The translations under genes were made by a program, and so were the position numbers. From Pseudogemmatithrix spongiicola (lineage in GTDB: Bacteria > Gemmatimonadota > Gemmatimonadetes > Gemmatimonadales > Gemmatimonadaceae): a stretch of 64,000 nt of DNA. This document shows, piece by piece, positions 19,698 to 27,029 of the stretch. The notes under the pieces are model-generated. The model did no database searches, was not told the origin of the DNA, and saw only the letters and a list, made by a program, of their open reading frames with translations. The number at the start of each line of letters is the position of its first letter. The stretch's first letter is position 1. The stretch spans positions 2,294,001 to 2,358,000 of the forward strand of contig NZ_CP130613.1 of assembly GCF_030623445.1 (NCBI RefSeq). The letters are read 5' to 3'.

Positions 19698-20147
19698 CTA
19701 CTTGTGGCTCACGCTATACACGTAAGCGGCGACCGCCCGCCACCGATCATCCGGTAGCATTACTCCTCCGTAGGGCGGCATCACGCTCGAGAACTGCTTG
19801 GGCGACATCACGCCGGCCTTGATCGTGTTGGCGATGCCTTCGTACGAGCCGTCGCTGTGCAACCACTCGCCATCGGTGAGGTCGGGCGCCGCGGCACCGG
19901 CCTTTCCGCCCGCACCATGACAGGCCTGGCAGGAGCTCGCGCCGATCTTGCCATGGAAGATCGAATCGCCGAGGGCGATCATCGCGGGCGTGATGCTCGC
20001 GGGATCGAACGAGGCCTGCGCGACGGGCGTGCTGGCCGCGGAGGCCGAGGACCCCGAGGCCGCAGGGGCGGCATCACCGCCACCACCACAGGCCGCGAGC
20101 GCCACGACGGCGGCGAGGGAGAGCGAACGGGTGCGGACGGTCGACAT
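19698..20147 (-). CDS. Lipoprotein mono-haem cytochrome c of the nos cluster
   Basis: The 149-residue protein has a lipoprotein signal (LAACGGGG) followed by a low-complexity Ala/Ser linker. A single haem-binding CQACH precedes a likely distal Met ligand in MPPYGG. It is last in the minus-strand nos cluster and is a plausible electron donor to NosZ in the periplasm. The start ATG at 20147 is chosen because it begins the signal sequence; the longer open frame upstream overlaps nosY. Confidence 0.85.
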   Translation of the reverse strand: MSTVRTRSLSLAAVVALAACGGGGDAAPAASGSSASAASTPVAQASFDPASITPAMIALGDSIFHGKIGASSCQACHGAGGKAGAAAPDLTDGEWLHSDGSYEGIANTIKAGVMSPKQFSSVMPPYGGVMLPDDRWRAVAAYVYSVSHK

Positions 20148-20178
20148 CAGGATGCTCCGTGAATGAGAGAGGGGGGAC

Positions 20179-21009
20179 TCAGAAGTCGCGCCGCAGGAAG
20201 CGGCGGCGCGCGAGGGACACGGGCAGCACCGTCCAAAGTGCCAACGCCGTGAGCGCGACGCTAGGGCCGAGCGCGCCGCCGAAGAGCCGGCGGAACAGCG
20301 CGCCGGTGTAGCCCAACAAGGCCGCGGTATCGAGGCCGGTGAGGACGAGCACGCGAGCGAGATCGACCGGATTGCCGAGCATGAGCAGCAGCAGCGGCTT
20401 CTCGAGCGGCCAGTCGCCAAACATCGAGACCACCGCGAGCACCGCCCCATCGTAGCCGATGGTGAACAGGAACCAGGCGCCGAGCGACAGCGACATCCCT
20501 TTCAGGCGGTCATCGCTGCCGAGCGCGATGGCCATCGCCATGGCGGCGAACGTCGCCGTGAGCAGCACGCCGACGGCGGCGAGCGCCAGCAACGCCGACG
20601 GCGAAGCGGCGGAGAGGGTGCCGTGCAGCAGCAGCGGGATGCCGACGCCGAGCACGAACGCGCCGGCCAGCGGCAAGGTCAGGCCGAGGTACAGCCCCGT
20701 GAAGATCGCGCGTCGCGGCAGCGGCTGCGCGAGCAGCAGTTCGATGAACTCGCGCGAGGCGTACACGTGCATGGTGCCGAACACCAGCGCGACGAGCGGC
20801 ACGAGCAGCAACGTGGCATTGAGCAGCGAGAGCAGCACCTGCTGCCCCGCCCCGCCGAACACGAAGAGCAGCTCCGACATGCCCGCGAGGGCGATGCCAT
20901 ACGCGAGCAACCAGCGGTTCCGTGCGAGGTCGCGCACGCCGGCGCGGAGCACGAGTCCGAGGGGACTCGCTGCGCGGGGCGCCGCGGCAGCCAGGGTCAC
21001 GGTCGTCAT
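20179..21009 (-). CDS. nosY: ABC transporter permease NosY-like
   Basis: The 276-residue membrane protein has about six hydrophobic helices, the usual layout of NosY. It pairs with the adjacent ATPase NosF and periplasmic NosD in maturation of the copper centre of nitrous oxide reductase. Its start overlaps the NosF stop by four bases. Confidence 0.85.
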   Translation of the reverse strand: MTTVTLAAAAPRAASPLGLVLRAGVRDLARNRWLLAYGIALAGMSELLFVFGGAGQQVLLSLLNATLLLVPLVALVFGTMHVYASREFIELLLAQPLPRRAIFTGLYLGLTLPLAGAFVLGVGIPLLLHGTLSAASPSALLALAAVGVLLTATFAAMAMAIALGSDDRLKGMSLSLGAWFLFTIGYDGAVLAVVSMFGDWPLEKPLLLLMLGNPVDLARVLVLTGLDTAALLGYTGALFRRLFGGALGPSVALTALALWTVLPVSLARRRFLRRDF

Positions 21010-21731
21010 CGGGCACCTCCGTTGGCCACCTTGAGACCGCGCAGCAACGCGGCGATGGCTGGCTCGAGCCGCCGCGTGCCTGTTTCGGCCAGCAACGCCT
21101 GCACCGATCCGGCGAAGCGCAGCCGACCGTCCGTAAGGAAGGCGACGTCATCGGCCAGCTCCTCGAGCTCGCTGAGAATGTGGGACGTGATGAGCACCGT
21201 GCGTCCCTCGGCGCGTGCCGCACGGATGGCGTGCTTGAGCAGCCCCGCGGCGATGGGATCGAGGCCCGCCGTGGGCTCGTCGAGGATCAGCACGTCGGGG
21301 CGGAACAGCCAGGCGGCGGCGAGCGAGACCTTTTGCCGCCAGCCGCCGCTCAGCGTGCCGACCGGCGTGGCCCACTCCGCGCGCAGCGAGAACTCGTCGA
21401 GCAGCGTCTCGTCGACGCTGGCCGTCGGACGCAGCGCCTGCAGCATCGCAAAGACCTCGCCGACCGCGAGGTTGGCCGGAAAGTGCGGCGCTTGCGGGGC
21501 GTAGCCGATACGCGCACGGTAGGCACCGTCTGCATCGGCAGGCGTGCCGTCGAGCAAGAGGCGGCCAGCGTCGGCGCGCGCGAGACCGAGGATGCACTTG
21601 ATGAGTGTCGTCTTGCCCGAGCCGTTCGGCCCGACGAGCGCTGCGATGCGGCCCGGTTCGAGGGACAGCGAGACGCCATCGAGCACGGTGCGGGTGCCGA
21701 AGGCCTTCCGCATGGAGTCGAGCGTGATCAT
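21006..21731 (-). CDS. nosF: ABC transporter ATP-binding protein NosF-like
   Basis: The 241-residue ABC ATPase has Walker A GPNGSGKTT, signature LSGGWRQKV, Walker B VLILDEPTAGLD and a switch His in ITSHILSE. It overlaps nosD upstream and nosY downstream by four bases each, so these three are a tight unit. NosDFY is required for CuZ assembly on NosZ. Confidence 0.92.
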   Translation of the reverse strand: MITLDSMRKAFGTRTVLDGVSLSLEPGRIAALVGPNGSGKTTLIKCILGLARADAGRLLLDGTPADADGAYRARIGYAPQAPHFPANLAVGEVFAMLQALRPTASVDETLLDEFSLRAEWATPVGTLSGGWRQKVSLAAAWLFRPDVLILDEPTAGLDPIAAGLLKHAIRAARAEGRTVLITSHILSELEELADDVAFLTDGRLRFAGSVQALLAETGTRRLEPAIAALLRGLKVANGGAR

Positions 21732-22954
21732 CGGGGCGGCCTCATGAGCGGACGTTCATCCGCCAGCGGGGGAGTGAGCACGGGGAACACGCGCTCGGCG
21801 GCGTCGAGGACGGTCGTCACCGGCGAGCGCAGCATGAGCAGCGCCTCGGGATGCCGCTCGACGACGAGCGCGAAGAAGCGCACGGGCCGGAAGGGCACGT
21901 CGCCGCGCCCGTCCCGGTCGAGGTCGTAGCCGCGATAGGCATCCCACCAATTGCCGTCGAAGGTGGAACGGAGCGTGCGGCTGTTCGTGGCGACGTCGAA
22001 GGCATTGCCTTCGAAGGTGTTGCCGACGAAGCGGTTGTCCAACGCATCGGCCATGAGGCGCACCGCCCAGCCGTTGGCGCGGAATTCGTTGCCGCGGATC
22101 TCGAAGCGCGAGGCGCCCTCGAGATACAGGCCGGTGGAGCTGCCGATGAACTTGTTCTCGACCAGCACCCCATCGGTGATCTCCTTGAGCAGCAGCGCGT
22201 ACGCCGCCGAACCCACGGCATCGCGGAACTCGTTCCGCTCCATCGTGATGCCCTTACTGTACATGACGGCCACGCCGGCGCCGTTCGCGACGAAGGCGTT
22301 GTCGGTATAGCGGCAGGAATCGGAGAACATGAAGTGCAGGCCGTACCGGGCGTTGGCCTCGCTGCGGTTGTTCTCCGCCACGGCTCCGCGCGAGAACTCG
22401 AAGTAGATGCCGTCGCGCTGGCCGGTGATGCGATTGCCGATCACGCGGATGCCCGTGGAGTGCCAGAGGTGCACGCCGTTGCCGTTGCTGGACTCACCGC
22501 CGCCAGCGCCGACGATGTCGTTGTTGCGGATAGTGCAGTCCACGGCGCGCTGGAGGTACACGGCGAAGAGCGTCTGCCGGAAGCGGTTGTCGGCGACCGT
22601 GCAGCGGGCGGCCTCGATCACGCGCAGCGCGGCGCGATCCTGCATGTGGGCGATGCCCGTGTTGAAGAACACGAGGCCCTGCAGGGTCACGTCGTCGGCA
22701 CGGATGTTGACGATCTCGCGCTGGCCCTCGCCGTCGAGCACCGGCCACCCCTCCCCGACGATCCGGAGACGTGGCGTGCGGATCTCGATCGTCGGTTCGC
22801 GGTAGGTGCCGGGGCGCACGCGAATGGTGCTGCCGGGACGCGCCGCAGCGACCGCGGCGGAAACGGTCTTGAACGGCGCGCCATCGCCCACGACGAGTTC
22901 CTGCGCCGGCAGTGCGGCGGCGAAGAGCATCGTGAGGAGAAGGGCGGCGCGCAT
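21728..22954 (-). CDS. nosD: NosD, periplasmic copper-centre maturation protein
   Basis: The 408-residue protein has a cleavable signal peptide (MRAALLLTMLFAAALPAQ). It is followed by many parallel beta-helix repeats (patterns such as NRITGQRDGIYFEFSRGAVAENN), the fold known for NosD. It works with NosF and NosY to deliver copper or sulfur to NosZ. It starts next to the end of the NosL-fusion gene. Confidence 0.93.
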   Translation of the reverse strand: MRAALLLTMLFAAALPAQELVVGDGAPFKTVSAAVAAARPGSTIRVRPGTYREPTIEIRTPRLRIVGEGWPVLDGEGQREIVNIRADDVTLQGLVFFNTGIAHMQDRAALRVIEAARCTVADNRFRQTLFAVYLQRAVDCTIRNNDIVGAGGGESSNGNGVHLWHSTGIRVIGNRITGQRDGIYFEFSRGAVAENNRSEANARYGLHFMFSDSCRYTDNAFVANGAGVAVMYSKGITMERNEFRDAVGSAAYALLLKEITDGVLVENKFIGSSTGLYLEGASRFEIRGNEFRANGWAVRLMADALDNRFVGNTFEGNAFDVATNSRTLRSTFDGNWWDAYRGYDLDRDGRGDVPFRPVRFFALVVERHPEALLMLRSPVTTVLDAAERVFPVLTPPLADERPLMRPPR

Positions 22955-22955
22955 C

Positions 22956-23963
22956 TCAGGGCCCGCCGTGGACCGACTCGGCTGCCCCGCCGCGCACCAC
23001 AGCCCAGTCGATGAGCCTCCCGCCGAGTCGCGCGCGCGCCGCCTCGGCGGCTGCCGGCGACGCGAACGCCGTGATGCGACCCATCGGGCTGCGCAGGTTG
23101 GCGTCGGCGAGGTAGCCCGCGGCCTCCGCGCTCACCCAGGTGCCCGGGTTCTCGACGTCGAGCACCCAGATGCTCGCCACCTTGTCGGCCGGCGTGCGCT
23201 CGAGGAACTCGGCGAGGCATTCCGGTGAATCGAACACGAGTTGGCGCCCCGTGGTCGTCACGACCTGTGACCCGAAGCGCGGATCACTGATCTGCATCTT
23301 GCAGTGCTCGCAGGCGTCCTGGTTCACGACGAGGTCGCGCGGCGGGACGTTCGCGCAGCCCGCGGCGGTGAGCAGCACCGCCCCGAGCAGGGCACGCCGC
23401 CGCGTGTCGAGCACGGCGAGGAATACCAGGCCTGCCGCGAGCGTCAGCGCGATGCCGCCGCCCGATGGCCAGGACGTGGCCCGGAAGTTGAGCAGCTTCT
23501 TGGAGCCGATGAGCGGGGGTTGATAGGTCATCCCCGGCACCTTGATGATGGCGACCTCTTCGTCGAGGTCGTGCCCGTAGTCGTAGCCCCAGCGATAGAA
23601 GTCGGCGAGGCCGGCGACGAGGGTCAGGGCCAGCGCCCCGCCCCAGACGTGCAGGGCGAGACGCTTCCCCGAGGCGGCGACCGCGAGGCCGCCGGCGATG
23701 AGCCCCGCGAGGATCCACGGCATGTACCGCAGCTCGGGAATCGCGTCAGGCTCGATCCTCTTCATGCCGATGTAGTGGTTCAGGTTGTTGATGGAGTTGA
23801 GGTCCTGCGGCTTCAAGCCCTCAACCCCATTGATCTTGATGTACATCCCAAGGCCCTCCGGATACTGCGGCGCGATCAGATCGACGCGCCACAGCGGGAG
23901 TACGTAGGCCGTCGCCATCACGAACGAGGCGATCAAGACCATCCAGCGGGCCCGGGATGTCAT
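22956..23963 (-). CDS. nosL: Membrane protein fused to a NosL copper chaperone domain
   Basis: The 335-residue protein has an N-terminal part (about 1-205) with four to five predicted membrane helices and a conserved loop (LWRVDLIAPQYPEGLGMYI and NLNHYIGMKRI). A lipoprotein-like TAAGCANVPPRDL follows, and then a NosL domain (about 210-330, with DACEHCKMQISDPRFG). NosL delivers copper(I) to NosZ; the CEHCKM motif supplies the ligands. In many genomes the two parts are separate genes, so this is probably a gene fusion. It lies one base from the nosZ stop. Confidence 0.82.
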   Translation of the reverse strand: MTSRARWMVLIASFVMATAYVLPLWRVDLIAPQYPEGLGMYIKINGVEGLKPQDLNSINNLNHYIGMKRIEPDAIPELRYMPWILAGLIAGGLAVAASGKRLALHVWGGALALTLVAGLADFYRWGYDYGHDLDEEVAIIKVPGMTYQPPLIGSKKLLNFRATSWPSGGGIALTLAAGLVFLAVLDTRRRALLGAVLLTAAGCANVPPRDLVVNQDACEHCKMQISDPRFGSQVVTTTGRQLVFDSPECLAEFLERTPADKVASIWVLDVENPGTWVSAEAAGYLADANLRSPMGRITAFASPAAAEAARARLGGRLIDWAVVRGGAAESVHGGP

Positions 23964-23964
23964 C

Positions 23965-25953
23965 TCAGTTCCCTCCGGCGCGCTGCGGCGCCCGGTTGTT
24001 CGTGGTCGCGCGCAGGGCGACGTTCGAGCCGCGTGCCGACACGCGCACGTAGCCTTGCATCTCCTGGTGCAGCGCCGAGCAGAAGTCCGTGCAGTAGAAG
24101 GGATAGACCCCGACCTTCAGCGGCACCCAGCGCAGCGTGCGCGTCTCGCCCGGCATGATCAGCAGCTCGGCGTTCTGCGCGCCGAGGATGGCGAAGCCGT
24201 GGGGCACGTCCCAGTCCTGCTCGAGGTTCGTCACGTGGAAGAGCACCGTGTCGCCGACCTGCACGCCTTCGATGTTGTCCGGCGTGAAGTGCGAGCGGAT
24301 GCTGGCCATGCGCACGTGCACCACGTTGCCGCGGCGTTCGATGCCGCTTTCGCGCTCGGCGCGGATCACGCGCTGATGGCGGTTCTCGGCCAAGGCGTAG
24401 AAGCGCTTCTGGTTCTCGCGGACCTTCGCGGCATCGATGGCGTTGGCGTAGTGCGGCTCGCCATGTGTCGGGAAGTCGAGCAGCAGCTCCATGCGTTCGC
24501 CCGTGATGTCATAAAGCTGGGCCGAGTGGGCGAGCTCCGGACCGGTGGGCAGGTAGCGGTCCTTCGTGATCTTGTTCATGGCCAGCACGTAGCGGCCGTA
24601 GGGCTTCCGCGTGCCGCCGCCGGGGATCATGAGGTGGCCCACCGAGTAGTAGGTCGGCTGGCGGTCGACGACTTCCCAGGTGCCGAGCTTCCACTTCACG
24701 ATTTCCGACGAGAGGAACATCGAGGTGTACGCATAGCCTTGGCCGTCGAACTCGGTGTGGAGGGGGCCGAGGCCCGGCTCCTTCACCTCGCCGGCCAGCG
24801 TCGCGTTGTACTTGAGCACCGGAATGCCCTCGAGCTCACCCTCGAACTCCTTGGCCTCGATGGCGGCCAGCATCTTGGTGGCCGAGTGCACCGGGATCAC
24901 CGACGCGAGCTTGCCACCGGCGACGATGTATTCGCCCGACGGATCGACATCGGCGCCATGCGGCGACTTCGGCGTCGGCAGGAAGTACATCACCCCCTGG
25001 CAGTCCGCGGGCGTGATCTGCAGCACGGACGTCTTGCGCTCGCTGACCGCGGTGCGCGTGAACTCGTCCATGTGGTTGTGGCGATAGTCCACCTGCGCGC
25101 GGCGGCCCTTGCCCTGGCGGACGCAGGCTTCGGCGGCGCGGTAGTTCACCGCGGCGATGTAGTCCTTGTCGTTCTGCGAGGCGTTGACCTCGAGCAGCGT
25201 GTTGGCCTGCTCGGTGTTGTACGACGAGAAGAACATCCAGCCGGCCGACGGGCCCTTGCCCGCGCGGGCGAGGTCGTAGTTGAACCCCGGCACGATGAGC
25301 TGGAAGGCGATGTCCATCTTGCCCGGCTGGTCGGCCGTGATGAACGAGATCTGGCCGCGGAACTGCGCCTTGTACTCGGCGATCGGCACGTCGCGGTTGG
25401 GCACCGGGATCGAGAAGCGCGTCGAGGAGACGATGTACTCGGTGTTCTCGGTGACGAAGGGCGAGGCGTGGTTGCCGGCGGCGTTCGGGATCTCGAGGAT
25501 TTCCGAGGTCTCAAAGGTCGTGAGGTCCACGCGCGCGACGCGCGGCGTGTTGTTGCCGTTCACGAAGAGCCAGCGACCGTCGTCCTCGCCGTTGGTCTGC
25601 GAGAGCGCGGTGTGATGGAGGTCGTCCCAGGGGATGAAGCCATAGGACGTCTCGAGCATCGGCTTCGTCTCCTCCGAGTAGCCCCAGCCGTTCTCGGCGT
25701 TCTGCGAGAAGACGGGGATCACCTTCAGGAGGCGGCCCGACGGGATGCCGTAGACGCCGACTTGGCCCGAGAAGCCGCCGGAGAGGAACGCATACAGTTC
25801 GTCGTACTCACCCGGCGCGACGTAGGTGCGCTGGGCATTGCCGGCTCCGCCGGCGAGGGAGGATGTGCGGTTGCCCGCACAGGCATACCCGATCCCGACG
25901 GCTCCGAGGAGCGCGGCGCCGAGGATCAGGCGGTTGCGGGAGAGGGACGGCAT
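23965..25953 (-). CDS. nosZ: Nitrous oxide reductase, clade II (Sec-dependent)
   Basis: Reduces N2O to N2 in the periplasm. The 662-residue protein has a plain hydrophobic signal (LILGAALLGAVGIGYACAG) without a twin-arginine motif, which marks the Sec-exported clade II. The CuZ beta-propeller His residues (WDDLHHTA and later His) and the CuA domain (YPFYCTDFCSALHQEMQGYV) are present. The start at 25953 begins this signal; the frame stays open 41 codons further but would cover the regulatory palindrome. It is first in the minus-strand nos operon. Confidence 0.96.
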   Translation of the reverse strand: MPSLSRNRLILGAALLGAVGIGYACAGNRTSSLAGGAGNAQRTYVAPGEYDELYAFLSGGFSGQVGVYGIPSGRLLKVIPVFSQNAENGWGYSEETKPMLETSYGFIPWDDLHHTALSQTNGEDDGRWLFVNGNNTPRVARVDLTTFETSEILEIPNAAGNHASPFVTENTEYIVSSTRFSIPVPNRDVPIAEYKAQFRGQISFITADQPGKMDIAFQLIVPGFNYDLARAGKGPSAGWMFFSSYNTEQANTLLEVNASQNDKDYIAAVNYRAAEACVRQGKGRRAQVDYRHNHMDEFTRTAVSERKTSVLQITPADCQGVMYFLPTPKSPHGADVDPSGEYIVAGGKLASVIPVHSATKMLAAIEAKEFEGELEGIPVLKYNATLAGEVKEPGLGPLHTEFDGQGYAYTSMFLSSEIVKWKLGTWEVVDRQPTYYSVGHLMIPGGGTRKPYGRYVLAMNKITKDRYLPTGPELAHSAQLYDITGERMELLLDFPTHGEPHYANAIDAAKVRENQKRFYALAENRHQRVIRAERESGIERRGNVVHVRMASIRSHFTPDNIEGVQVGDTVLFHVTNLEQDWDVPHGFAILGAQNAELLIMPGETRTLRWVPLKVGVYPFYCTDFCSALHQEMQGYVRVSARGSNVALRATTNNRAPQRAGGN

Positions 25954-26021: not shown

Positions 26022-26046
26022 AAAGGTGCATTTTACTTGCACCTTT
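26022..26046. promoter_or_regulatory. NsrR-type operator between nosZ and the Rrf2 regulator
   Basis: A perfect inverted repeat, AAAGGTGCA and TGCACCTTT with 7 bases between, sits between the divergent nosZ and Rrf2 genes. Its inner 23 bases fit the 11-1-11 NsrR consensus (AAGATGCATTT, N, AAATGCATCTT) with three mismatches. It is about 69 bp from the nosZ ATG and 62 bp from the regulator ATG. It could control both, giving NO-responsive nos expression and autoregulation. Confidence 0.75.
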
Positions 26047-26107
26047 AATCCAGTCCGAGAACGCCGGATTTGGCATAAGGGTTTCCCCTAGGGGCTAGGT
26101 TCGACCC

Positions 26108-26542
26108 ATGCGACTGACTCGACACACCGACAGCGCCCTGCGCGCACTCATCTACCTCGGCATCCACACCGAGGAGGCGCCGGCCCGCATCACCGACATC
26201 GCCCGCCGCATGGGCATGAGCGAGGACCACCTCGCGAAGGTGATCGCGCGGCTCTCCCAGCTCGGCTACGTGGAGACCATCCGCGGGCGCGACGGCGGGG
26301 CGCGGCTCGCGCGGCCGGCCTCGGAGATCGTCGTGGGCGCCGTGGTGCGCGCCACGGAGGACAATCTCAACTTGGTCGAATGCTTCGACCCCGCCACCAA
26401 CCAGTGCCCGATCGCCCCGGCCTGTGCGCTGGCGCCAGCACTCGATGAAGCGCTGACGGCGTTCCTCGCGGTGCTCGACCGCTACACACTCGCCGACCTG
26501 GTCGCCAAGCCGCGCGGCCTCACCAAGCTACTCATCGCCTGA
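26108..26542 (+). CDS. nsrR: Rrf2-family NO-responsive regulator, NsrR-like
   Basis: The 144-residue regulator has an N-terminal winged helix (ARITDIARRMGMSEDHLAKVIARLSQLGYVETIRGR). A three-cysteine segment, ECFDPATNQCPIAPAC, would bind an Fe-S cluster, as in NsrR; the spacing C-x7-C-x5-C is slightly longer than in Escherichia coli. It is divergent from nosZ, with a near-consensus NsrR box in between. The ligand is inferred from that box and the context. Confidence 0.85.
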   Translation: MRLTRHTDSALRALIYLGIHTEEAPARITDIARRMGMSEDHLAKVIARLSQLGYVETIRGRDGGARLARPASEIVVGAVVRATEDNLNLVECFDPATNQCPIAPACALAPALDEALTAFLAVLDRYTLADLVAKPRGLTKLLIA

Positions 26543-26567: not shown

Positions 26568-27029
26568 ATGGACTGGTTCGTCCGCAGCTTCCTCAAGGCC
26601 AGCCTCGTCTGGCTCTCGCTCGCCGTCCTCCTGGCGCTCACGATGGCCTTCGTGCCCACGCTGACCGTCTATCGCACGGCGCACCTGCACATGGCGCTCC
26701 TGGGCTTCGTCGGGCAGATGATCTACGGCGTGGCGCTGCACGTGATCCCACGCTTCTTCGGCCAGCCGCTGGTATACCGTCGCGCCGCCGAGGTGCAGTT
26801 CTGGGCCGCGCAGATCGGCCTCACGGCCCTCGCGACCGGATTCATCACGCGCGTCCACGGCCTGCCCGTCGCGACCGCGCTGATCGCGACGGGCGGCACA
26901 CTCAGCGCCGTCGGCGCCGGCTGCTTCGTGGTGAATGTGTGGAGGACGATCGACGCCAGCCCGATGGCGGCGGTGCATCAGAAGGCGGGGAAAGGGCTGC
27001 CGACGCTGCCGCAAGCTGATGCGCACTGA
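26568..27029 (+). CDS. Small haem-copper oxidase subunit I-like membrane protein
   Basis: The 153-residue protein has four predicted membrane helices. The motifs AHLHMALLGFVGQMIYGVALHVIPRFFG resemble part of the CcoN/NorB core, but the chain is far too short for a full oxidase subunit. It is 25 bases downstream of the NsrR-like gene and probably co-transcribed, suggesting a role in NO or N2O respiration. A repeat of family B follows. Confidence 0.55.
   Translation: MDWFVRSFLKASLVWLSLAVLLALTMAFVPTLTVYRTAHLHMALLGFVGQMIYGVALHVIPRFFGQPLVYRRAAEVQFWAAQIGLTALATGFITRVHGLPVATALIATGGTLSAVGAGCFVVNVWRTIDASPMAAVHQKAGKGLPTLPQADAH

Follow-up and report, generated by a model that had tools for sequence, protein, structure and literature searches.

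NsrR regulons that include denitrification genes were predicted by Rodionov et al. in 2005 (PMC1274295). In later reports, holo-NsrR represses its targets and is released by NO (PMC4861436, PMC11500311), and the cluster ligands of ScNsrR are given as three cysteines together with Asp8 (PMC5411485). In Magnetospirillum, NsrR binds and represses the nosZ promoter, NO weakens this binding, and nosZ expression is higher in an nsrR deletion mutant, in which NO still induced nosZ (PMC11014258). In metagenomes from marine sediment, Rrf2 genes have been found adjoining clade II nos clusters, in a role that the authors considered difficult to predict (PMC6264515), and the clade II nosZ of Campylobacterota has been linked to Crp/Fnr regulators (PMC11539149). 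Both the binding of NsrR to a nosZ promoter and the proximity of Rrf2 genes to clade II nos clusters are, then, already on record. Our search of the literature, judged partly by title and abstract, found no NsrR site described in Gemmatimonadota. Gemmatimonas and other clade II N2O reducers are much-discussed soil N2O sinks, and the induction of their nosZ has been little studied.

A palindrome between nosZ and an Rrf2 gene

We analyzed a stretch of 64,000 nucleotides from Pseudogemmatithrix spongiicola, referred to here as the window, in which nosZ and an Rrf2 gene diverge from a 154-bp intergenic gap that contains a palindrome. The features are as follows.

19698 to 20150, minus strand: c-type cytochrome, end of the nos operon
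20179 to 21009, minus strand: ABC-2 membrane protein (nosY position)
21006 to 21731, minus strand: ABC transporter ATPase (nosF position)
21728 to 22954, minus strand: nosD (TIGR04247)
22956 to 23963, minus strand: nosL-domain protein of the nos operon (PF05573)
23965 to 25953, minus strand: nosZ, clade II (Sec-type) nitrous oxide reductase (TIGR04246, 923 bits, cut-off 625)
26022 to 26046, no strand: predicted NsrR-type operator, a perfect 9-7-9 inverted repeat with a 23-bp core at 26023 to 26045
26030 to 26035, minus strand: TAAAAT, a possible −10 hexamer for nosZ, within the box
26052 to 26069, minus strand: second conserved element, reading ATCCGGCGTTCTCGGACT in the nosZ direction and lying upstream of the putative promoter of that gene
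26108 to 26542, plus strand: nsrR, predicted Fe-S regulator of the Rrf2 family (D8, C92, C100, C106)
26568 to 27029, plus strand: small COX1/NnrS-like membrane protein, 3′ of nsrR; in relatives, its homologues at an unlinked locus have the same box

The assignment of NosZ to clade II reflects its score of 923 bits against the Sec-type model versus 356 bits against the TAT-type model, TIGR04244. The nosZ reading frame is open up to 26076, and its likely start at 25953 is conserved in relatives. With this start on the minus strand and that of the Rrf2 gene at 26108 on the plus strand, the palindrome lies between the two genes, as the first-pass annotation had placed it. No NirK or NirS scored over the curated cut-offs in the genome. 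Separately, the locus at G000:C1:2691368 (L180, 1417 to 3168) encodes a ba3-type oxidase-like subunit with GHSSQQ in place of the GHPEVY of typical oxidases; it is possibly an eNOR-type NO reductase, and its PDB matches are ba3-type oxidases.

The palindrome itself, AAAGGTGCATTTTACTTGCACCTTT, consists of two perfect 9-bp arms separated by a 7-nt spacer (AAAGGTGCA-N7-TGCACCTTT, spacer letters TTTTACT) and is thus the perfect inverted repeat that had been claimed. By direct reading, it departs from the 19-bp NsrR core gATGyAT-N5-ATrCATc (PMC1274295) at three positions and from the strict 23-bp consensus AAGATGYATTTNAAATRCATCTT at four, so the three mismatches counted in the first-pass annotation hold for the core and not for the strict longer form. 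If R/Y is permitted at the fourth base and its partner, the mismatches to the NsrR consensus fall to two.

Apart from the shortness of its arms, nothing favors the view that this is a chance palindrome. A perfect-arm pattern with three or fewer mismatches is expected by chance 0.01 times per 64 kb, as estimated from shuffles, and the NsrR pattern occurred in none of 100 shuffled sequences. Across the whole 3.26-Mb, one-contig genome, 26022 to 26046 was the sole site within three mismatches of the palindrome; these genome-wide counts are pattern searches, in which NsrR-like matches with three mismatches were about as numerous as those to a control pattern. The shuffle controls and the uniqueness in the genome contradict a chance origin, which is refuted because the palindrome is conserved across genera (see below), and we give it next to no weight. 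Two other genomic matches were rejected as targets: C1:680237, the next best NsrR-like match (one mismatch), lies within a long open reading frame, and C1:2791639 directly precedes a PIN-toxin-like gene, as judged by eye.

A standard sigma-70 scan of the gap found no promoter. The central base of the palindrome is A on the nosZ strand in 21 of 22 sites, a base that a symmetric dimer need not fix, which suggests that a nosZ −10 element may lie inside the box. The second conserved element, approximately TC(A/G)GG-N6-CC(T/G)GACT on the nosZ strand and seen also in L050, L051, L061, and L063, is in most genera separated from the box by 3 to 6 nt. Since it is also found in some nosZ promoters that lack nsrR, it seems to belong to nosZ and not to NsrR. 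It is possibly a −35 element or an activator site, with a variable distance of 14 to 16 nt to the putative −10.

Conservation and distribution of the box

Of 298 genomes from the phylum, 41 had an orthologue of the Rrf2 gene, and a divergent nosZ adjoined the gene at 31 loci in related genomes. The first-pass annotation had named absence of the motif from orthologous promoters as evidence against its reading. The reading was not refuted on this point: an unguided search for palindromic 23-mers in the 31 upstream regions returned exactly the window site as its top motif, and models built with each genus omitted in turn recovered the box in 21 of the 31 gaps at p ≤ 0.01, namely in every one from Gemmatimonas g1, g8, and g10 along with g21 and g26. 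These searches were seeded with another genus's site and run with 200 shuffles each, which limits circularity; G155 gave a p of 0.025. In each of the seven Gemmatimonas genomes, the site lies at −81 to −85 relative to the start of the regulator gene.

The other 10 gaps (g3, g12, g17, g19, and g9) had no box at p ≤ 0.01 with the held-out models, recovery having failed in g12, g17, and g19 and being weak or absent in g3. The g3 and g12 gaps have palindrome-like blocks of their own. That of g3 is an aligned, diverged block, ATCTCGGAT-N5-ATACC(A/G)GAT, on the same side of the gap; g12 (L014, L018) has a different palindrome, ATCCTCTATTCTTAGTAGAGGAT, about −130 from nsrR, possibly a box of altered specificity. 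In g10 we observed a second box in tandem, displaced from the first by 27 to 28 bp toward nosZ (L020, 910 to 932; L024, 1317 to 1339; L025, 1314 to 1336).

The palindrome might instead be a site for another factor, or a feature of the nosZ promoter, with the Rrf2 gene an incidental neighbor. The second element adjoining the box, which recurs in some nsrR-less nosZ promoters, does indicate that nosZ promoters have other inputs. The box, however, accompanies nsrR and not nosZ: it was found in none of 38 nosZ promoters without a neighboring nsrR (best score in any held-out model, 8.8). When 254 kb covering 40 further nosZ loci were scanned, the only matches of at least 14 bits were the two boxes of G217, whose nsrR lies about 2 kb away. 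The strict pattern gave eight sites in seven of the 298 genomes, every one with an NsrR homologue, against no control sites. Four genomes in which we found an nsrR of the same clade and no nosZ (G039, G074, G184, and G202) also lacked the box.

Two of the eight strict-pattern sites precede an operon for an ScdA_N protein (confirmed by Pfam in one of the two) and two COX1-like proteins, the first of which is 46% identical to the product of the window gene 3′ of nsrR. Among Gemmatimonadaceae, a box of at least 20 bits lay near an unlinked COX1-like copy in 7 of 14 nsrR-positive and 0 of 21 nsrR-negative genomes, the best score at the latter's COX1-like loci being 11.4; none of the sites at these loci was used in building the motif model. 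Fisher's one-sided p, calculated by hand, is about 5e-4, a value that ignores kinship, with six of the seven positives from one genus. As unlinked operons bear the box solely where nsrR is present, the view that the palindrome serves another factor has very little probability. The COX1/NnrS-like membrane protein, of 150 aa, is linked to NsrR boxes in two genomic settings (window 26568 to 27029; L193 and L199) and may handle NO or haem.

The first-pass annotation had also proposed a search for the motif at other NO or nos genes. In the genome itself this yielded the one site, too few for a regulon cross-check; in relatives it found boxes at nirK, truncated-haemoglobin, RIC-like ScdA_N, and COX1/NnrS-like operons. 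A box precedes nirK-nsrR-truncated haemoglobin in L046 (NirK scored 390 bits, over the cut-off; the haemoglobin was named by similarity to that of L048), nsrR-haemoglobin in L038 (the strongest, 32.3) and L048, and an nsrR-cupin locus in L047. In other phyla, proteins about 50 to 62% identical to that of the window, from Gluconobacter, Peribacillus, Methylobacterium, and an acidobacterium, had the same box near their own genes, whose neighbors, where checked, were hmp, NnrS, RIC, or haemoglobin; in Gluconobacter and Peribacillus the box lies near an nsrR beside hmp. In Billgrantia campisalis (L112, 5103 to 5125), an NsrR-like box occurs about 50 bp before a NosR-type gene, named by its Fer4_5/FMN-binding domains and position; nosZ comes next, and nsrR and nnrS are close by.

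The Rrf2 protein as a probable NsrR

The 144-aa Rrf2 protein scored 132.5 bits against PF02082, and its best PDB match was NsrR structure 5n07 (ScNsrR; E = 2e-23). The close relatives that carry names are from Gemmatimonas sp. and other Gemmatimonadaceae. Residues D8, C92, C100, and C106 were invariant across 13 aligned orthologues, and by analogy with the NsrR family the protein would carry an Fe-S cluster. In a quick tree, used for grouping only, the nosZ-linked Gemmatimonadaceae proteins formed one group (SH-aLRT 100) amid NsrR loci of other phyla that adjoin hmp, nnrS, and RIC.

RirA is closely related to NsrR and resembles it in Cys pattern, and the protein could be a RirA-like iron or Fe-S sensor, in which case the box would tie nosZ to iron or redox state and not to NO. 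The NCBIfam RirA equivalog (PRK11920) did score 10 bits above the NsrR equivalog (PRK11014), at 143 and 133 bits, but both fell below their cut-offs (193 and 182, respectively), and for this reason the name NsrR rests on context and box and not on the NCBIfam score. The homologue in L047 has its own strong box and likewise fell under the NsrR cut-off, so PRK11014 seems too narrow to decide membership here. Iron-responsive boxes have the pattern TGA-N9-TCA, which is absent from 26022 to 26046 by direct reading, whereas the NsrR consensus fits. The NO-metabolism genes that adjoin the regulator or are linked to the box are nosZ here and nirK, haemoglobin (group III truncated), ScdA_N, NnrS, and hmp in relatives; they are not iron-uptake genes. 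We therefore consider a RirA-like role unlikely.

From its sequence and setting (Asp8 with three Cys residues, ScNsrR as the nearest structure, and NO-gene context), the Rrf2 protein is NsrR-like. The first-pass reading of the palindrome as an NsrR box likewise gains support, at the sequence level, from a box that is conserved and tracks nsrR and from a protein that groups with NsrR loci. As a separate observation by eye, half-site type appeared to vary with one recognition-helix residue (Q with GTGGTAT; A, G, or N with TGCAT), with L012, L015, L016, and L046 as exceptions.

Proposed regulation and comparison with known systems

The palindrome is very probably the docking site of the divergently encoded NsrR-type regulator. 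We think it probable that the full NsrR scheme operates here, with binding, NO as the signal, and repression as the sign carried over from the NsrR family. A dimer of the holo (Fe-S) protein would occupy the 23-bp site and repress transcription in both directions, of the nos genes from nosZ onward and of nsrR with the COX1/NnrS-like gene. NO would destroy or modify the cluster, NsrR would leave the DNA, and both units would be transcribed. As no NirK or NirS over the cut-offs was found in the genome, the NO is probably external, from neighboring denitrifiers or chemistry, and could act as a cue for the presence of N2O.

A smaller but appreciable likelihood attaches to NsrR binding as an activator or weak modulator, with the main control of nosZ exerted by oxygen or by an activator at the second element. 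Magnetospirillum NsrR activates some promoters (PMC11014258), G. aurantiaca is said, in a secondary report, to need oxygen for nosZ transcription (PMC6264515), and a conserved second element precedes the putative nosZ promoter. Against this, the box appears to overlap the likely nosZ −10, the position of a repressor. More tentatively than the NsrR repression scheme itself, we suggest that in N2O-reducing Gemmatimonadaceae without nitrite reductase, NsrR may now be a dedicated nosZ switch that reads the NO of others as a cue for N2O, jointly with a factor at the TC(A/G)GG-N6-CCTGACT-like element.

The prediction is that a soil-type N2O sink turns on its N2O-consuming enzyme upon meeting NO. A defined operator and regulator make NO control of N2O uptake in nondenitrifiers directly testable.

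In Wolinella and Nitrosophilus, clade II nosZ is under Crp/Fnr-type control, which is likewise linked to NO or N2O and uses another regulator family (PMC11539149). The marine-sediment clusters, which were reported with no binding site, share clade II nosZ and an Rrf2 gene with our locus (PMC6264515). Magnetospirillum NsrR shares nosZ as a target, which here is predicted from sequence; unlike our organism, Magnetospirillum is an alphaproteobacterium that has nap, nir, and nor genes itself and in which NsrR has many targets (PMC11014258). The NsrR regulons of Proteobacteria, Bacillus, and Streptomyces (PMC1274295, PMC4432287, PMC5411485, PMC9338935) resemble the present one in having an Rrf2 protein with D8 and three Cys residues, a 23-bp palindromic box adjoining the regulator gene, and a small local regulon. 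Gemmatimonas has the half-site GGTGCAT and the sister genera have GTGGTAT, in contrast to GATGYAT in the known regulons, and the predicted target, unlike theirs, is a clade II nosZ in Gemmatimonadota.
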